From a virus: DNA of 22,190 bases. The translations under genes were made by a program, and so were the position numbers. The stretch spans positions 1 to 22,190 of the IMG/VR virus record IMGVR_UViG_3300046003_001748; one strand, written 5' to 3'. Shown in pieces: positions 6,041 through 18,270 of the stretch (the first letter of the stretch is position 1; each line of letters begins with the position of its first letter). Below the pieces are notes generated by a model. The model saw only the letters and a program-made list of their open reading frames with translations. It ran no database searches and was not told the origin of the DNA.

Positions 6041-8530
6041 ATGAAGTTTTATACAAACGTGAATCAGTATGGCAATCGGATTCTAGTTCGGGGCGTAAAT
6101 AATGGTAAAACGGTTCAAGATAAGATTGAATTTAAGCCAAGTCTTTATACGAAATCCCAGAAACAAACTCAGCATAAGTCGTTATTCGGAGATTTTCTTG
6201 AGGAAATCGAGTTCGCAGATATAAATGACGCCAAAGATTACGTCAGTCGTTATAAGGAAGTTGAGAATTTCCCTATTTTCGGTAACACAAATTACGCTTA
6301 TCAGTATATTACAAAGACGTTTCCTGGCGAAGTAGAGTTCGATATTTCACAGATTAAAATTTGGTCATTGGATATTGAGACATCTGCAGAACTTGGATTT
6401 CCCGATGTTCGCGATCCAAAAGAAGAATTATTATTAATTACGATTCAAGATGCAAATACTAAAGAACTTGTCACATTTGGAACAAAACACTTCAATGTAA
6501 CAAAAGATAATCATACTTATATTCAATGTCGGGATGAGTATGATCTATTACAGAAGTTTGTTCTATATACTCAGGAAAATTGCCCCCATATCTTAACAGG
6601 TTGGAACTTAGAGTTTTTCGATATTCCATATTTGTGTTCTCGTATTGCCCGTATTCTTGGAGATGAGTATGTTCGTAAACTATCACCCTGGGGTGTAGTG
6701 AAGGCAAAAGAGTTTACCCGTATGAATCGTACAGAACTAACATACGATATTCTGGGTGTAGCAATTTTAGACTATCTTGATCTATATAAGAAGTTTACAT
6801 ATTCTGCGCAAGAATCATATAAGTTGGATCACATTGCCAAAGTAGAACTCGGTAAAGAAAAGTTATCGTATGCAGAATATACTTCATTCCGAGACTTTTA
6901 CAAAAATGATTGGCAAAAGTTCGTTGAGTATAACGTGATTGACGTGGAGCTCGTTGACCAACTTGAAGATAAGATGAAGTTGATTGAGCTGATTCTTACT
7001 ATGGCGTATGATGCTAAGTGTAATTATGTAGATGTATTCTCAGCTGTAAGAACTTGGGATTGCATCTTGTGGAATCACTTGTGGAATAAGAACATTGTTG
7101 TTCATCAGAGAGAAGGATTGCCTAGCAGACCTATTGTAGGTGCGTTTGTTCAAGAACCAAAACCTGGACAATATGATTGGGTAGTATCATTTGATGCTAC
7201 AAGTCTGTATCCAAGTATTATTATGCAGTATAATTTGTCTCCAGAAACACAGGTCAAACGAGAAACAAAGAATACTACAGTTGAACAATTGCTACAGAAC
7301 AAATATAATTTAGATGATCTAAAAGAAAAGAACTTGTGTATGTCGGCAAATGGGTTCTGTTACACTAGAGAAAAGCAAGGCCTGTTCCCTGAGATTGTAC
7401 AGAAGTTATTCGATGATCGACAAAAGTATAAGAAGCTTATGTTGGCTGCTCAATCTAAATATGAGGAAACAAAAGATAAGAAGTGGCAAAAAGAGATTGC
7501 AAAGTTTAATAACTTTCAGATGGCTCGTAAGATTCAATTGAACTCGTTGTTTGGGGCATGGGGCAATGAGTTTTTCCGATTCTATGATGCCAACATTGCT
7601 GAAGGCATTACTATGTCGGGTCAGTATATTATTCAGACAGTGGGCGCAGCTTTGGATGAATACTTAAATAAAGTGTGCGGCACAACAGATCGCGTATATT
7701 CATTCTATTCAGATACAGATGCTTGTTATATTACACTTGATCCATTGGTTCAAAAGTTCTATAAAGATCAACCAAAAGAAAAGATTGTTGAAATTCTAGA
7801 TAAAATTTGTAATGAGAAGATTGAAAAGGCAATTAACAAGGCCTGCGATGGACTTGCAGATTATACTAATGCGTTTGAAACAAAGATTTATTTTAAGCGT
7901 GAGGTTATTGCAGATCGAGGTATTTGGGTTGCTAAGAAACGATATGCTTTGAATGTCTATAACAATGAAGGTGTTCAATATAAAGAGCCAAAGTTAAAGG
8001 TCATGGGATTGGAGATTGTTAGATCTTCTACACCTGAACCTGTTCGTGATGCTTTAAAGGCAGCAGTAAAATTGGCATTGACTGGAACAGAACAACAGCT
8101 ACAAGATTATATTAGAGAGTTCGAATCTAAGTATCGTAAGATGACACCCGAGTTGATTGCGTTTCCTAGAGGTGTAAATGGAGTCGATAAATATACAGAC
8201 AAAGGTAGCATTTATAAACAAGGTACACCTATGCACGTTCGTGGTGCTCTGTTGTACAACTTCTATCTAAAAGAAAAACAAATCGATAAAAAGTATGAAC
8301 TTATAAATGAAGGCGATAAGATCAAATTCATTTACTTGAAAGAACCAAACTTGATTAAAGAAAATGTTATTGCCTTTATCAATGTTATTCCCGAAGAGTT
8401 CAATTTGAAGCAGTATGTAGATTATGACATTATGTTTGAGAAATCATTTCTTGAACCATTAACAACAATTTTAAATGGTGTGGGTTGGTCTGCAAAACCA
8501 CAAGCAACATTGGAAGGATTATTTGCATGA
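6041..8530 (+). CDS. 43: Family-B DNA polymerase, T4 gp43-like
   Basis: 829-residue replicative polymerase, a little shorter than T4 gp43 (898). The 3'-5' exonuclease motifs are present: Exo I WSLDIETSAE (Asp111, Glu113), Exo II GWNLEFFDIPYL (Asp194) and Exo III EYNVIDVELVDQL (Asp301). So are the polymerase motifs: A at SFDATSLYPSI (Asp385), B at KIQLNSLFGAWGN (from 498) and C at YSDTDACYI (Asp558, Asp560). The C-terminal ATLEGLFA resembles the sliding-clamp-binding tail of T4-like polymerases. The protein is therefore expected to be both proofreading and polymerising. The stop codon overlaps the ATG of pstS (ATGA), so the phosphate-binding protein is coupled to replication gene expression. 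Confidence 0.97.
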   Translation: MKFYTNVNQYGNRILVRGVNNGKTVQDKIEFKPSLYTKSQKQTQHKSLFGDFLEEIEFADINDAKDYVSRYKEVENFPIFGNTNYAYQYITKTFPGEVEFDISQIKIWSLDIETSAELGFPDVRDPKEELLLITIQDANTKELVTFGTKHFNVTKDNHTYIQCRDEYDLLQKFVLYTQENCPHILTGWNLEFFDIPYLCSRIARILGDEYVRKLSPWGVVKAKEFTRMNRTELTYDILGVAILDYLDLYKKFTYSAQESYKLDHIAKVELGKEKLSYAEYTSFRDFYKNDWQKFVEYNVIDVELVDQLEDKMKLIELILTMAYDAKCNYVDVFSAVRTWDCILWNHLWNKNIVVHQREGLPSRPIVGAFVQEPKPGQYDWVVSFDATSLYPSIIMQYNLSPETQVKRETKNTTVEQLLQNKYNLDDLKEKNLCMSANGFCYTREKQGLFPEIVQKLFDDRQKYKKLMLAAQSKYEETKDKKWQKEIAKFNNFQMARKIQLNSLFGAWGNEFFRFYDANIAEGITMSGQYIIQTVGAALDEYLNKVCGTTDRVYSFYSDTDACYITLDPLVQKFYKDQPKEKIVEILDKICNEKIEKAINKACDGLADYTNAFETKIYFKREVIADRGIWVAKKRYALNVYNNEGVQYKEPKLKVMGLEIVRSSTPEPVRDALKAAVKLALTGTEQQLQDYIREFESKYRKMTPELIAFPRGVNGVDKYTDKGSIYKQGTPMHVRGALLYNFYLKEKQIDKKYELINEGDKIKFIYLKEPNLIKENVIAFINVIPEEFNLKQYVDYDIMFEKSFLEPLTTILNGVGWSAKPQATLEGLFA

Positions 8531-9531
8531 AAAAACTATTTGCTATTATATTAGCCGCAGTAACGGTTACAGCGCAGTCAGCAGAAATTACAGGGGCGGG
8601 AGCAACATTTCCAATGCCTATCTATTCTAAATGGGCAGAAGGATATAAGAAAGCCACCGGCCACAGTTTGAATTATCAGAGTATCGGCAGTTCAGGTGGC
8701 ATTAGACAAATCAACGCAAAGACAGTAGACTTTGGTGCAACTGACGCACCTGTGTCAGGTGAGAACTTAGACAAGAACGGACAGGTTCAGTTCCCAGCAA
8801 TCATTGGCGGAACAGTTCCTGTAGTTAACTTAGACGGTATCAAGCCTGGTGAACTAAAAATTACAGGACCTGTAATGGCTGAAGTATTCATGGGTACTAT
8901 TGCTAAATGGAATGATCCTAAGTTAGTATCATTAAACCCAGGTAAGGCATTACCAGATGCACCAATCACTATTGTTCATCGTGCGGATGGTTCAGGCACA
9001 ACATTTAACTGGACAGACTATCTTGCTACAGTAAGTCCTGAGTGGCTAGCTAAAGTAGGTCGTGGTGCCGCAGTTAAATGGCCGTCACCAAATTCAGTAG
9101 GGGGTAAAGGCAATGAAGGTGTTGCTGCTAACGTAAATCGTATCAAAGGTAGTATTGGTTATGTAGAGTATGCTTATGTTAAGAAGAACAACATGGTATT
9201 CTTACAACTACAAAACAAGAGTGGCAAGTATGTTAGTCCAGATGACTTAACATTTGCTGCCGCTGCCGATGGTGCTGATTGGTTCAGTGTTCCTGGTATG
9301 GGATTAAGTATTGTGGATCAAAAGAATCCTAATGCTTGGCCGGTGAGTTCTGCAAGTTTCATCATTATGTACAAAGAGCCAAAGAGCAAAGCTACCAGTG
9401 ATGAAGTATTAAAGTTCTTTGACTGGGCATTCAAGAATGGCAAGAAAGATGCCGTAGATTTAGATTATGTTCCATTGCCGGACACATTGACGAAACAGAT
9501 TCGTGAACGCGTTTGGACACAAATTAAATAA
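8527..9531 (+). CDS. pstS: PstS-like periplasmic phosphate-binding protein
   Basis: 334-residue substrate-binding protein of the high-affinity phosphate ABC transporter. The signal peptide (MKKLFAIILAAVTVTAQSA) is followed by the family signatures: GAGATFP (23-29), IGSSGG (53-58), DFGATDAP (68-75) and HRADGSGTTF (151-160), which line the phosphate site. I chose the ATG at 8527, overlapping the polymerase stop, because it starts exactly at the signal peptide; a longer frame from 8485 does not. Known: phage pstS genes are auxiliary metabolic genes thought to keep phosphate uptake high in infected, P-limited cells. No PstC, PstA or PstB is present, so the protein must feed the host transporter. 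The sequence looks proteobacterial. Confidence 0.96.
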   Translation: MKKLFAIILAAVTVTAQSAEITGAGATFPMPIYSKWAEGYKKATGHSLNYQSIGSSGGIRQINAKTVDFGATDAPVSGENLDKNGQVQFPAIIGGTVPVVNLDGIKPGELKITGPVMAEVFMGTIAKWNDPKLVSLNPGKALPDAPITIVHRADGSGTTFNWTDYLATVSPEWLAKVGRGAAVKWPSPNSVGGKGNEGVAANVNRIKGSIGYVEYAYVKKNNMVFLQLQNKSGKYVSPDDLTFAAAADGADWFSVPGMGLSIVDQKNPNAWPVSSASFIIMYKEPKSKATSDEVLKFFDWAFKNGKKDAVDLDYVPLPDTLTKQIRERVWTQIK

Positions 9532-16284: not shown

Positions 16285-16313
16285 TTGACAAGGTTATTAA
16301 AAGATGTTATAAT
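16285..16313 (+). promoter_or_regulatory. Consensus sigma70 promoter for the tRNA array
   Basis: TTGACA (16285-16290), 17-base spacer, TATAAT (16308-16313), with ATGC directly before the -35. It lies about 52 bases before the first tRNA. Confidence 0.92.
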
Positions 16314-16371: not shown

Positions 16372-16445
16372 ATCCGGTTAGCTCAATAGTAGAGCACTCG
16401 ACTGATAATCGAAAGACAGAGGAGCGTTACCTCTACTGGATACCA
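16372..16445 (+). tRNA. tRNA-Ile(GAT), atypical elbow
   Basis: Cloverleaf with acceptor ATCCGGT/ACTGGAT, encoded ACCA end and anticodon loop CTGATAA. Unusual: the T-loop is AGCGTTA instead of TTCRANN, the D-loop AATAGTA lacks the GG pair, and pair 27-43 is mismatched. Confidence 0.8.
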
Positions 16446-16563: not shown

Positions 16564-16641
16564 GCCTGGGTGGCAGAGTGGTCAAATGCAACGGATTGCA
16601 AATCCGTAAGATCGTCAGTTCAAATCTGACCCCAGGTTCCA
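16564..16641 (+). tRNA. tRNA-Cys(GCA)
   Basis: Anticodon arm ACGGA-TTGCAAA-TCCGT, acceptor GCCTGGG/CCCAGGT, discriminator T as usual for Cys, encoded CCA. Confidence 0.95.
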
Positions 16642-16649
16642 AATAATGC

Positions 16650-16678
16650 TTGACACAAGTGTGTTAAGGTGTTATAAT
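16650..16678 (+). promoter_or_regulatory. Consensus sigma70 promoter before structured RNA
   Basis: TTGACA (16650-16655), 17-base spacer, TATAAT (16673-16678), preceded by ATGC. Transcription would start near 16685, exactly where the hairpin-rich non-coding region begins. Confidence 0.92.
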
Positions 16679-16896
16679 AAGACATAATTTAAAAATCCCG
16701 TTACTATTTTCGTTAAAATAGCGTTTGATTAGCGACAGAGATCCGGTGGCAGAAAACCGTTAGCGTGAGGATTAAAAATACCCTCGCAGGCTCTGATAGG
16801 CAGAATCTCACTGCACACAGACTTTGAATAAATGAGATGGACAGAGTAACCGCTCAATTAAGGGCTTGCGTGGAAGCAAGTAGCTTATCCCAAGTT

Positions 16897-16972
16897 GGTC
16901 TGTTAGTGTTAGCGGTAAGCACGCGAGCCTGTCACGCTTGTAGGAGGGATTCGAATTCCCTACAGACCGCCA
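16897..16972 (+). tRNA. tRNA-Asp(GTC), embedded in structured RNA
   Basis: Acceptor GGTCTGT/ACAGACC, anticodon arm CGAGC-CTGTCAC-GCTTG, T-loop TTCGAAT, discriminator G, encoded CCA. Confidence 0.95.
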
Positions 16973-17195
16973 AGTTATGGTCTTAGTCTATAAATGCATA
17001 AAGACAGTCTAAGTTAAATGGCACCTCAAAGTGGGACCAACCATTTTAAAACCCGCCGGAGTAACGTCTGGCTACTGTGACCCGCAGAAAGTGAAGTAAG
17101 TTCGTAACTTACGGGTGGTAGTCTTTAAACCGAAAGGCCGTTGGCAGCACGAGAGCGGTCCTTGTCGGGAAGCGGGTGGAAGGTACGCGTGAGGG

Positions 17196-17216
17196 ATATG
17201 ATAGCGTCATATTTTT
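17196..17216 (+). terminator. Weak intrinsic terminator-like hairpin
   Basis: ATATGA-TAGCG-TCATAT followed by four T. The stem is AT-rich and only six pairs, so it may attenuate rather than stop transcription before tRNA-Leu. Confidence 0.4.
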
Positions 17217-17253
17217 CTGTACTATAATTACCGCCGGAGGACGCAGAGCATTT

Positions 17254-17330
17254 GCCTAGGTGACGGAATTGGTATACGTGTTGGTCTTAGAAGCCAAATT
17301 TTGAGAGTTCGAGTCTCTCCTTAGGCACCA
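17254..17330 (+). tRNA. tRNA-Leu(TAG) with short variable loop
   Basis: Acceptor GCCTAGG/CTTAGGC, Leu-like D arm (ACGGAATTGGTATACG), anticodon arm TTGGT-CTTAGAA-GCCAA, encoded CCA. The variable region is about 5 bases instead of the long arm normal in Leu tRNAs. Confidence 0.9.
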
Positions 17331-17549: not shown

Positions 17550-17738
17550 ATGAACTCAACTGAAGACATCAAAACAAATCTCGAGGCATATCTTGCTGAG
17601 AACGATAAATTCGAAAAAGGTAATAGTGCTGCCGGGACTCGCGCCCGCAAGGCATTGGGTGAACTTGCAAAAGCTGTAAAAGCTAGACGCAACGAAATCA
17701 CTGCAGAAAAGAACGCACGCAAAGAAGCGAAAGCGTAA
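17550..17738 (+). CDS. Histone H1-like (Hc1-type) small basic protein
   Basis: 62 residues: MNSTEDIKTNLEAYLAENDK, then FEKGNSAAGTRARKALGELA and a basic helical tail (KAVKARRNEITAEKNARKEAKA). The AAGTRARKALGELAK segment is the hallmark of Hc1/histone H1-like nucleoproteins, which bind and condense DNA in Chlamydia and occur in many aquatic phages. AAGGAAAA ribosome site before the ATG. It lies between tRNA-Pro and tRNA-Asn and is presumably co-transcribed with them. A role in host nucleoid or phage DNA compaction is inferred from the family. Confidence 0.85.
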   Translation: MNSTEDIKTNLEAYLAENDKFEKGNSAAGTRARKALGELAKAVKARRNEITAEKNARKEAKA

Positions 17739-18006: not shown

Positions 18007-18270
18007 ATGAACTATAAACCTCTGCATGATAAAGTATTAGTAATTGAAAATGAAAAGCCAAAAGAAACCGAAAGCGGTATTTTTGTAGGCGAAGCCCGTA
18101 TGGATGATAACACAAGAGCGGGGACTGTTCTTGCGATTGGTCCAGAAGTTACTGAGGTTAAAGTTGGAGATATTGTTTACCCAATGTGGACAAAATCTAA
18201 AGTCGTAAAAGAAGGCGACCTATTCATGGGAATTATTTCCCAAGAAGATATTCTTGCAGTACAAGAATAA
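18007..18270 (+). CDS. GroES-like co-chaperonin (T4 gp31 analogue)
   Basis: 87 residues with a complete Cpn10 pattern. The N-terminal PLHDKVLVIENEKPKETESGI resembles the family's 'PLxDRVLVK...EEKTAGGI', and its acidic ExxSGI segment is the GroES mobile loop that contacts GroEL. Then come AGTVLAIGPE, VKVGDIVYP, and the C-terminal strand MGIISQEDILAV. Shorter than E. coli GroES (97) and T4 gp31 (111). Known role in T4: gp31 replaces GroES so that host GroEL can fold the large major capsid protein; the same is likely here. AGAAAG ribosome site. Embedded between tRNA-Val and tRNA-Arg. Confidence 0.92.
   Translation: MNYKPLHDKVLVIENEKPKETESGIFVGEARMDDNTRAGTVLAIGPEVTEVKVGDIVYPMWTKSKVVKEGDLFMGIISQEDILAVQE

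Follow-up and report, generated by a model that had tools for sequence, protein, structure and literature searches.

The question raised by this locus is whether the gene-free interval around a phage tRNA-Asp gene is one large RNA with the tRNA in its middle, as an initial annotation made from the letters alone had proposed, or more than one RNA lying beside the tRNA. The window (the whole stretch of DNA that was analysed) is the 22,190-base IMG/VR contig IMGVR_UViG_3300046003_001748, from a T4-like phage whose gp43-type polymerase is closest to those of T4-like cyanophages and marine phages and which also encodes UvsX and DnaB. It contains 24 tRNA genes predicted by ARAGORN and one extra (16372-16442), missed by ARAGORN and recognized by Rfam only (54.7 bits), which is preceded by a second perfect promoter at 16285-16313. 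Protein genes in or near the array include a GroES-like co-chaperonin (18007-18270), a 62-aa open reading frame (17550-17738) that is also conserved in the arrays of relatives, and a phosphate transporter subunit (8485-9531).

Two RNA families in one tRNA slot

As annotated, the interval from 16680 to 17253 has no open reading frame of 50 or more amino acids and an intact tRNA-Asp inside it, and its description as a structured, non-coding RNA region of a tRNA island, in a setting resembling that of GOLLD and ROOL, was likewise upheld. Judged by comparison with relatives, the interval is two unrelated RNA families, here called FIVE and THREE, one on each side of tRNA-Asp.

16650-16678 (+): perfect sigma-70-type promoter (TTGACA-N17-TATAAT, 12/12) of the tRNA/RNA slot, not FIVE-specific
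16695-16893 (+): FIVE, subtype A, with hairpins P1, P2, P3, P4, P6 and P10 and pseudoknots P0, P2b, P7 and P8 (match to covariance model R1; covariation)
16897-16972 (+): tRNA-Asp (GTC), a separate gene between FIVE and THREE (ARAGORN and Rfam)
16973-17043 (+): linker, present in some relatives (L086, L093) and absent from L091 and L092
17044-17250 (+): THREE, with two pseudoknots and a long closing arm (match to covariance model R2; covariation)

In blastn searches against relatives of this phage, the left (FIVE) and right (THREE) parts matched different sets, and the modules have been gained and lost independently. The order promoter, FIVE, tRNA-Asp, linker, THREE is shared by the window and L086. 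In L093 the same promoter is followed by a different RNA, tRNA-Asp, the linker and THREE, and L091 and L092 have this order without the linker, so that tRNA-Asp and THREE stand without FIVE in L091-L093. FIVE and tRNA-Asp occur without THREE in L095, L098 and L135, as FIVE does in other relatives, and THREE lies after Gly or Ala and before Met in L148 and L112. The arrangement FIVE-tRNA-THREE recurs in L194, with tRNA-Tyr replacing Asp. The possibility of a fixed FIVE-tRNA-THREE unit was rejected, as both orders are seen among relatives and the distance varies as well.

These gene orders indicate that the promoter belongs to the slot and that the tRNA is a neighbour rather than a domain; the proposal of one large RNA with a central tRNA fails on the independent occurrence of its halves. 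The promoter had been correctly recognized as perfect, and what had to be given up was its assignment to FIVE, since in L091-L093 that promoter is followed by a different RNA cassette. Nor is a promoter-driven start a property of the module, as FIVE begins 2 nt after a tRNA in L095 and L098.

Structure of FIVE

FIVE occurs as two subtypes, A (the window copy) and B, with a common architecture of up to four pseudoknots in series and a 3' hairpin, in the order P0/P1, P2b/P2, P3/P7 (with hairpin P4), P6/P8, a small GAG/CTC hairpin and P10.

16704-16721 (+): P1 hairpin, whose loop pairs with 16699-16700 (P0, weakly supported); covariation
16722-16743 (+): P2 hairpin, with one significant pair, and P2b pseudoknot (CGTT/AGCG), supported mainly by the A/B comparison
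16744-16759 (+): P3 (CGGT/ACCG), whose loop CAGA (16750-16753) forms the P7 pseudoknot with TCTG (16792-16795)
16765-16787 (+): P4 hairpin of variable length, in both subtype A and B alignments
16800-16838 (+): P6 hairpin (GCAG/CTGC), whose loop ATCTC (16805-16809) forms the P8 pseudoknot with GAGAT (16834-16838)
16839-16855 (+): GGACAGAGTAACCGCTC segment, used as a search pattern and invariant partly by construction; variant in L157
16859-16887 (+): P10, 3' hairpin with a G/TAG internal loop; best covarying helix

Model R1, which is B-type, matches the window copy with 60.3 bits (E 1e-12), and this copy contains both the P7 (CAGA/TCTG) and the P8 (ATCTC/GAGAT) pairing of the family. R1 recovered 87 copies in 81 loci, with both subtypes on some contigs. 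In subtype B, pairing is 100% for P3, 91% for P7 and 98-100% for P10, and both sides change in all five pairs of P7. Overall, 80.4% of the cells in the B-type alignment are paired, compared with 69.5% after shuffling, and the corresponding values for the A-type alignment are 98.0% and 91.4%; none of 500 shuffles was as good in either case. Against a phylogeny-aware null, every significant column pair lies inside the fold (6/6 for B, 4/4 for A), P7 and P8 pairs included, with two P7 pairs exceeding every null and a P8 pair at E 0.03. In addition, a joint A+B alignment of 78 distinct sequences recovered P1, P6, P8 and P10, with the P8 pair at E 0.05 under an aligning model that had no P8. The weakest FIVE helices are P0 and P2b, where the B alignment is poor and support comes mainly from comparison of the subtypes by eye. 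A CTTGC/GCAAG hairpin noticed at the outset proved to be real, corresponding to the covarying P10.

Folding one sequence at a time by minimum free energy gave no useful information (z -0.34 and -1.42). FIVE by itself was unexceptional (z -0.34), and the interval as a whole folded a little more stably than shuffled sequence (z -2.06). Such folding does not see pseudoknots, and the evidence for FIVE is therefore comparative.

Structure of THREE

17055-17072 (+): S1 hairpin (alignment A4)
17075-17116 (+): S2 hairpin, whose loop ACCC (17080-17083) forms pseudoknot S3 with GGGT (17113-17116), spanning S4
17096-17112 (+): S4 hairpin, between the two strands of pseudoknot S3
17117-17138 (+): S5 hairpin, with three significant pairs, and pseudoknot S6 (GGT 17117-17119 with ACC 17129-17131)
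17139-17151 (+): S7 hairpin (A4 and phylogeny-aware null)
17158-17249 (+): 3' arm, in which S8 encloses S11, S9 and S10; one S9 pair significant
17195-17216 (+): S10 hairpin, previously annotated as a terminator hairpin

Model R2 matches the window at 17036-17256 with 195.8 bits, and both pseudoknots of the family, S3 and S6, are present in this copy. Alignment A4 (45 sequences) supports S1-S11, with 93.4% of cells paired compared with 82.1% in shuffles and none of 500 shuffles as good; both sides changed in 28 pairs, and covariation was 0.330 versus 0.136 in shuffles. Seven of the nine significant column pairs under the phylogeny-aware null lie inside the fold, and an eighth is at most one column off. 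The S3 pairing ACCC/GGGT is replaced by ACAC/GTGT in L313 and L377, and S6 hardly varies and is weakly tested.

Several pairings in the initial annotation were replaced by this model. An ACCCGC/GCGGGT helix had been drawn closing 17051-17177; relatives of THREE mostly start with AGAACGTTCC and lack ACCCGC, and in the model backed by A4 the GCGG of its second strand pairs with CCGC near 17231-17234. Pairing of CCGGTGG with CCGCCGG across the tRNA is superseded by pairing of each side within its own module (P3; S1/S11). The hairpin with a T run, taken for a terminator, is arm S10 inside THREE; most relatives have no T run there, and a tRNA-Leu follows. Finally, the 8- and 9-base repeats are unremarkable, as we estimate that ~0.6 identical 9-mer pairs would be expected by chance in 570 nt.

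Covariation and sampling of relatives

The phylogeny-aware null, which we wrote after the idea of R-scape, was used on three alignments (FIVE A, FIVE B and THREE). The covariation check that had been suggested for this interval was positive, with signal above the null and 17 of 19 significant column pairs in the proposed structures, and shifting the partner columns abolished the pairing signal in all three alignments. Relatives were gathered by exact motifs (the 17-base FIVE segment and a two-part motif for THREE), and for this reason the invariance of FIVE 16839-16855, of S11 and of CTAYAATTACCGCC in THREE is in part a product of the search itself. Most of the covarying helices are located outside the search motifs, and R1 also finds copies without the exact motif, such as that in L157. 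Strong covariation of this kind indicates that the predicted folds of FIVE and THREE are under selection.

Searches for known RNAs

A search of 16600-17300 with all 4227 families of Rfam 15, at gathering thresholds and at E ≤10, gave only tRNA and one chance-level CRISPR-repeat match, and Rfam found nothing on subtype B FIVE. No blastn match to FIVE (both subtypes) or THREE was found in 50,697 GenBank phages, among which the whole interval matched at tRNA-Asp only, and ten isolated large or tRNA-bearing phages gave no R1 or R2 covariance-model match under stricter filters. We found no report of either RNA in the open-licence literature. Because there is no Rfam match beyond chance and none in that literature, we call FIVE and THREE, on present sequence comparisons, new families among the structured RNAs of phage tRNA islands.

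Specific identities were also considered and rejected. The interval does resemble GOLLD in its setting, being phage-borne and in a tRNA island, and the GOLLD-like label was withdrawn on two grounds: there is no match to the model of the conserved 3' region (RF02032, gathering 150 bits) up to E 10 in 16600-17300, and in place of one continuous large RNA there are two separately occurring modules of ~200 nt. The same model detects GOLLD in L163 and L248. ROOL gave no match to its Rfam model at E ≤10, neither R1 nor R2 matches the T4 genome, which speaks against homology to RNAC or RNAD, ARAGORN finds no tmRNA (tRNA-Ala-like ends, tag open reading frame), and Rfam ribozymes and introns match neither the interval nor subtype B FIVE. 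The true GOLLD RNAs of L163 (1864-2326) and L248 (11682-12145, minus strand) each have an internal tRNA, and subtype B FIVE lies elsewhere on the same contigs.

Occurrence in phage tRNA arrays

FIVE and THREE are each present in more than 100 IMG/VR contigs of sizes up to 524 kb, with exact matches to the FIVE 17-mer in at least 119 IMG/VR stretches. Their strand always agrees with that of nearby tRNAs (79:0 for FIVE, 67:0 for THREE). Where a tRNA is mapped upstream, more than half of the modules start no further than 10 nt from the tRNA 3' end; where one is mapped downstream, the gap to it is at most 10 nt for about a third of FIVE copies and half of THREE copies. Many copies are spaced more loosely on one side or the other. 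Each RNA occurs only once or twice in whole contigs of 345-524 kb. The FIVE 17-mer was matched seven times in 257 Gb of bacterial and archaeal sequence; a single match is a genuine copy, and the 3-kb contig that carries it has four tRNAs. As far as sampled, FIVE and THREE are restricted to phage tRNA arrays.

Other arrangements were seen in these arrays. On the 524,565-base contig of L203, loci near 120 kb and 423 kb on opposite strands each hold one FIVE and one THREE, ~1 kb apart, and may represent two arrays or a chimeric or duplicated assembly. In L300 (7138-8237, minus strand), a FIVE of subtype A, a FIVE of subtype B and a THREE follow one another within 1.1 kb. The occupant of FIVE's slot in L091-L093, from the same promoter to tRNA-Asp (L091:624-828, L092:5153-5357, L093:337-542), is a third structured-looking RNA that ends in closing arms AATTGGGG/CCCCAATT, has weaker relatives in L206, L292 and L327, and gave no Rfam match. 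A fourth recurrent stretch (TTGAGTAGCTACAGTGGAACACCG...ACCGGCC) lies directly 3' of subtype B FIVE at L164:11262-11396 and in ~25 loci, and is 65-100% identical between phages. Gene-poor inter-tRNA gaps that recur between phages in small clusters (L169:10704-10862 on the minus strand, L109:966-1088, L163:4143-4240, L118:8199-8337) may be more RNA genes. Clustering of all inter-tRNA gaps produced one giant cluster, joined at least partly by undetected tRNAs, and provides leads only.

Proposed mechanism and alternatives

We consider it probable that FIVE and THREE are two independent structured non-coding RNA genes, carried as cassettes between phage tRNAs, co-transcribed with them, freed by tRNA maturation and acting in trans. 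The slot's promoter would drive them and the tRNAs together, and they would probably be released by 3'-end trimming of the upstream tRNA and an RNase P cut at the 5' end of the downstream tRNA, each freed RNA folding into a compact, presumably stable, multi-pseudoknotted molecule of ~200 nt. We infer co-transcription and release from the position of many copies, 0-10 nt away from mature tRNA ends, and from the precedent of T4, whose RNAC and RNAD (species 1 and 2 RNAs) are detected in infection and have no known function (PMC9697503, PMC3014915); these two show that a phage tRNA cluster can yield RNAs other than tRNAs during infection. The most likely role in trans would be during infection, either on the host machinery for translation or RNA handling or in decoying a tRNA- or ribosome-directed defence. 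Trans action is suggested because the modules travel together with tRNAs, can be absent or swapped as other accessory phage genes are, and show strong selection on their structure. An effect on translation or on RNA-directed defence is our best guess by analogy, based in part on GOLLD, the nearest analogue in setting, which is reported to bind ribosomes in pull-downs (PMC12286853); any particular target is a guess that is unlikely to be correct.

The best of the alternatives, though improbable, is that the modules are cis-acting elements of the tRNA operon (processing guides, or antitermination or attenuation leaders) and not free RNAs. They do lie always on the tRNA strand and often a few bases from tRNA ends, but many different tRNAs follow them, most array positions have no module, an unrelated RNA replaces FIVE in the same slot, and they are more elaborate than typical leaders. 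Self-acting RNAs, such as ribozymes cutting the tRNA precursor at their own ends, would account for a compact, pseudoknot-rich, strongly conserved core between RNAs that need separation by cuts; with no Rfam ribozyme or intron match to E 10, and with ordinary tRNA enzymes already able to make the ends, we regard this as distinctly improbable. Selfish or decaying mobile elements, for example intron remnants landing in tRNA arrays, would be gained, lost and replaced like these cassettes, but are very improbable given intact adjoining tRNA genes, covariation that reflects ongoing structural selection and no endonuclease gene seen within the modules. A single GOLLD-like RNA with tRNA-Asp as an internal domain is almost certainly wrong: GOLLD can carry a tRNA (1927-1998 in the L163 copy) and L194 repeats the arrangement around tRNA-Tyr, but GOLLD is not matched to E 10, every supported helix closes inside one half, and, on the gene orders, the separate occurrence of the halves in both orders has already refuted this for most relatives.

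It is possible, albeit doubtful, that large uncultured phages use their tRNA arrays as platforms for a repertoire of multi-pseudoknot RNA cassettes that can be exchanged (FIVE, THREE, the third RNA of L091-L093 and the fourth of L164 and its relatives), each released when the tRNAs are processed and then working in trans, perhaps in RNA counter-defence or translation takeover. Such platforms would be a layer of phage biology absent from Rfam and from cultured phages. FIVE and THREE suggest that much of the apparently empty space of phage tRNA arrays may be RNA genes. Both families are widespread and strongly conserved and have good covariation models; they offer testable structures and likely ends, and relatives without one module are natural knock-outs.

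Comparison with known systems

Four pseudoknots are also present in tmRNA; unlike tmRNA, FIVE and THREE have no tRNA-like ends or tag frame. RNAC, RNAD, GOLLD and ROOL have long been known without function, and FIVE and THREE help to ask what the non-tRNA RNAs of these arrays do. The closest analogues by position are RNAC and RNAD, which adjoin tRNA-Arg in T4 (L280) and, like FIVE and THREE, are non-tRNA RNAs directly beside tRNA genes of a T4-type cluster, whereas at 119-139 nt they are shorter. GOLLD (RF02032) shares the phage tRNA-island setting and an elaborate pseudoknotted structure, and can hold a tRNA, with phage tRNAs sometimes in its linker (PMC12286853); it is far larger (many exceed 800 nt) and differs in sequence and structure. 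ROOL likewise comes from phages and prophages, lies near tRNA islands and contains several pseudoknots (PMC12286853); unlike FIVE and THREE, it is one RNA of ~600 nt.
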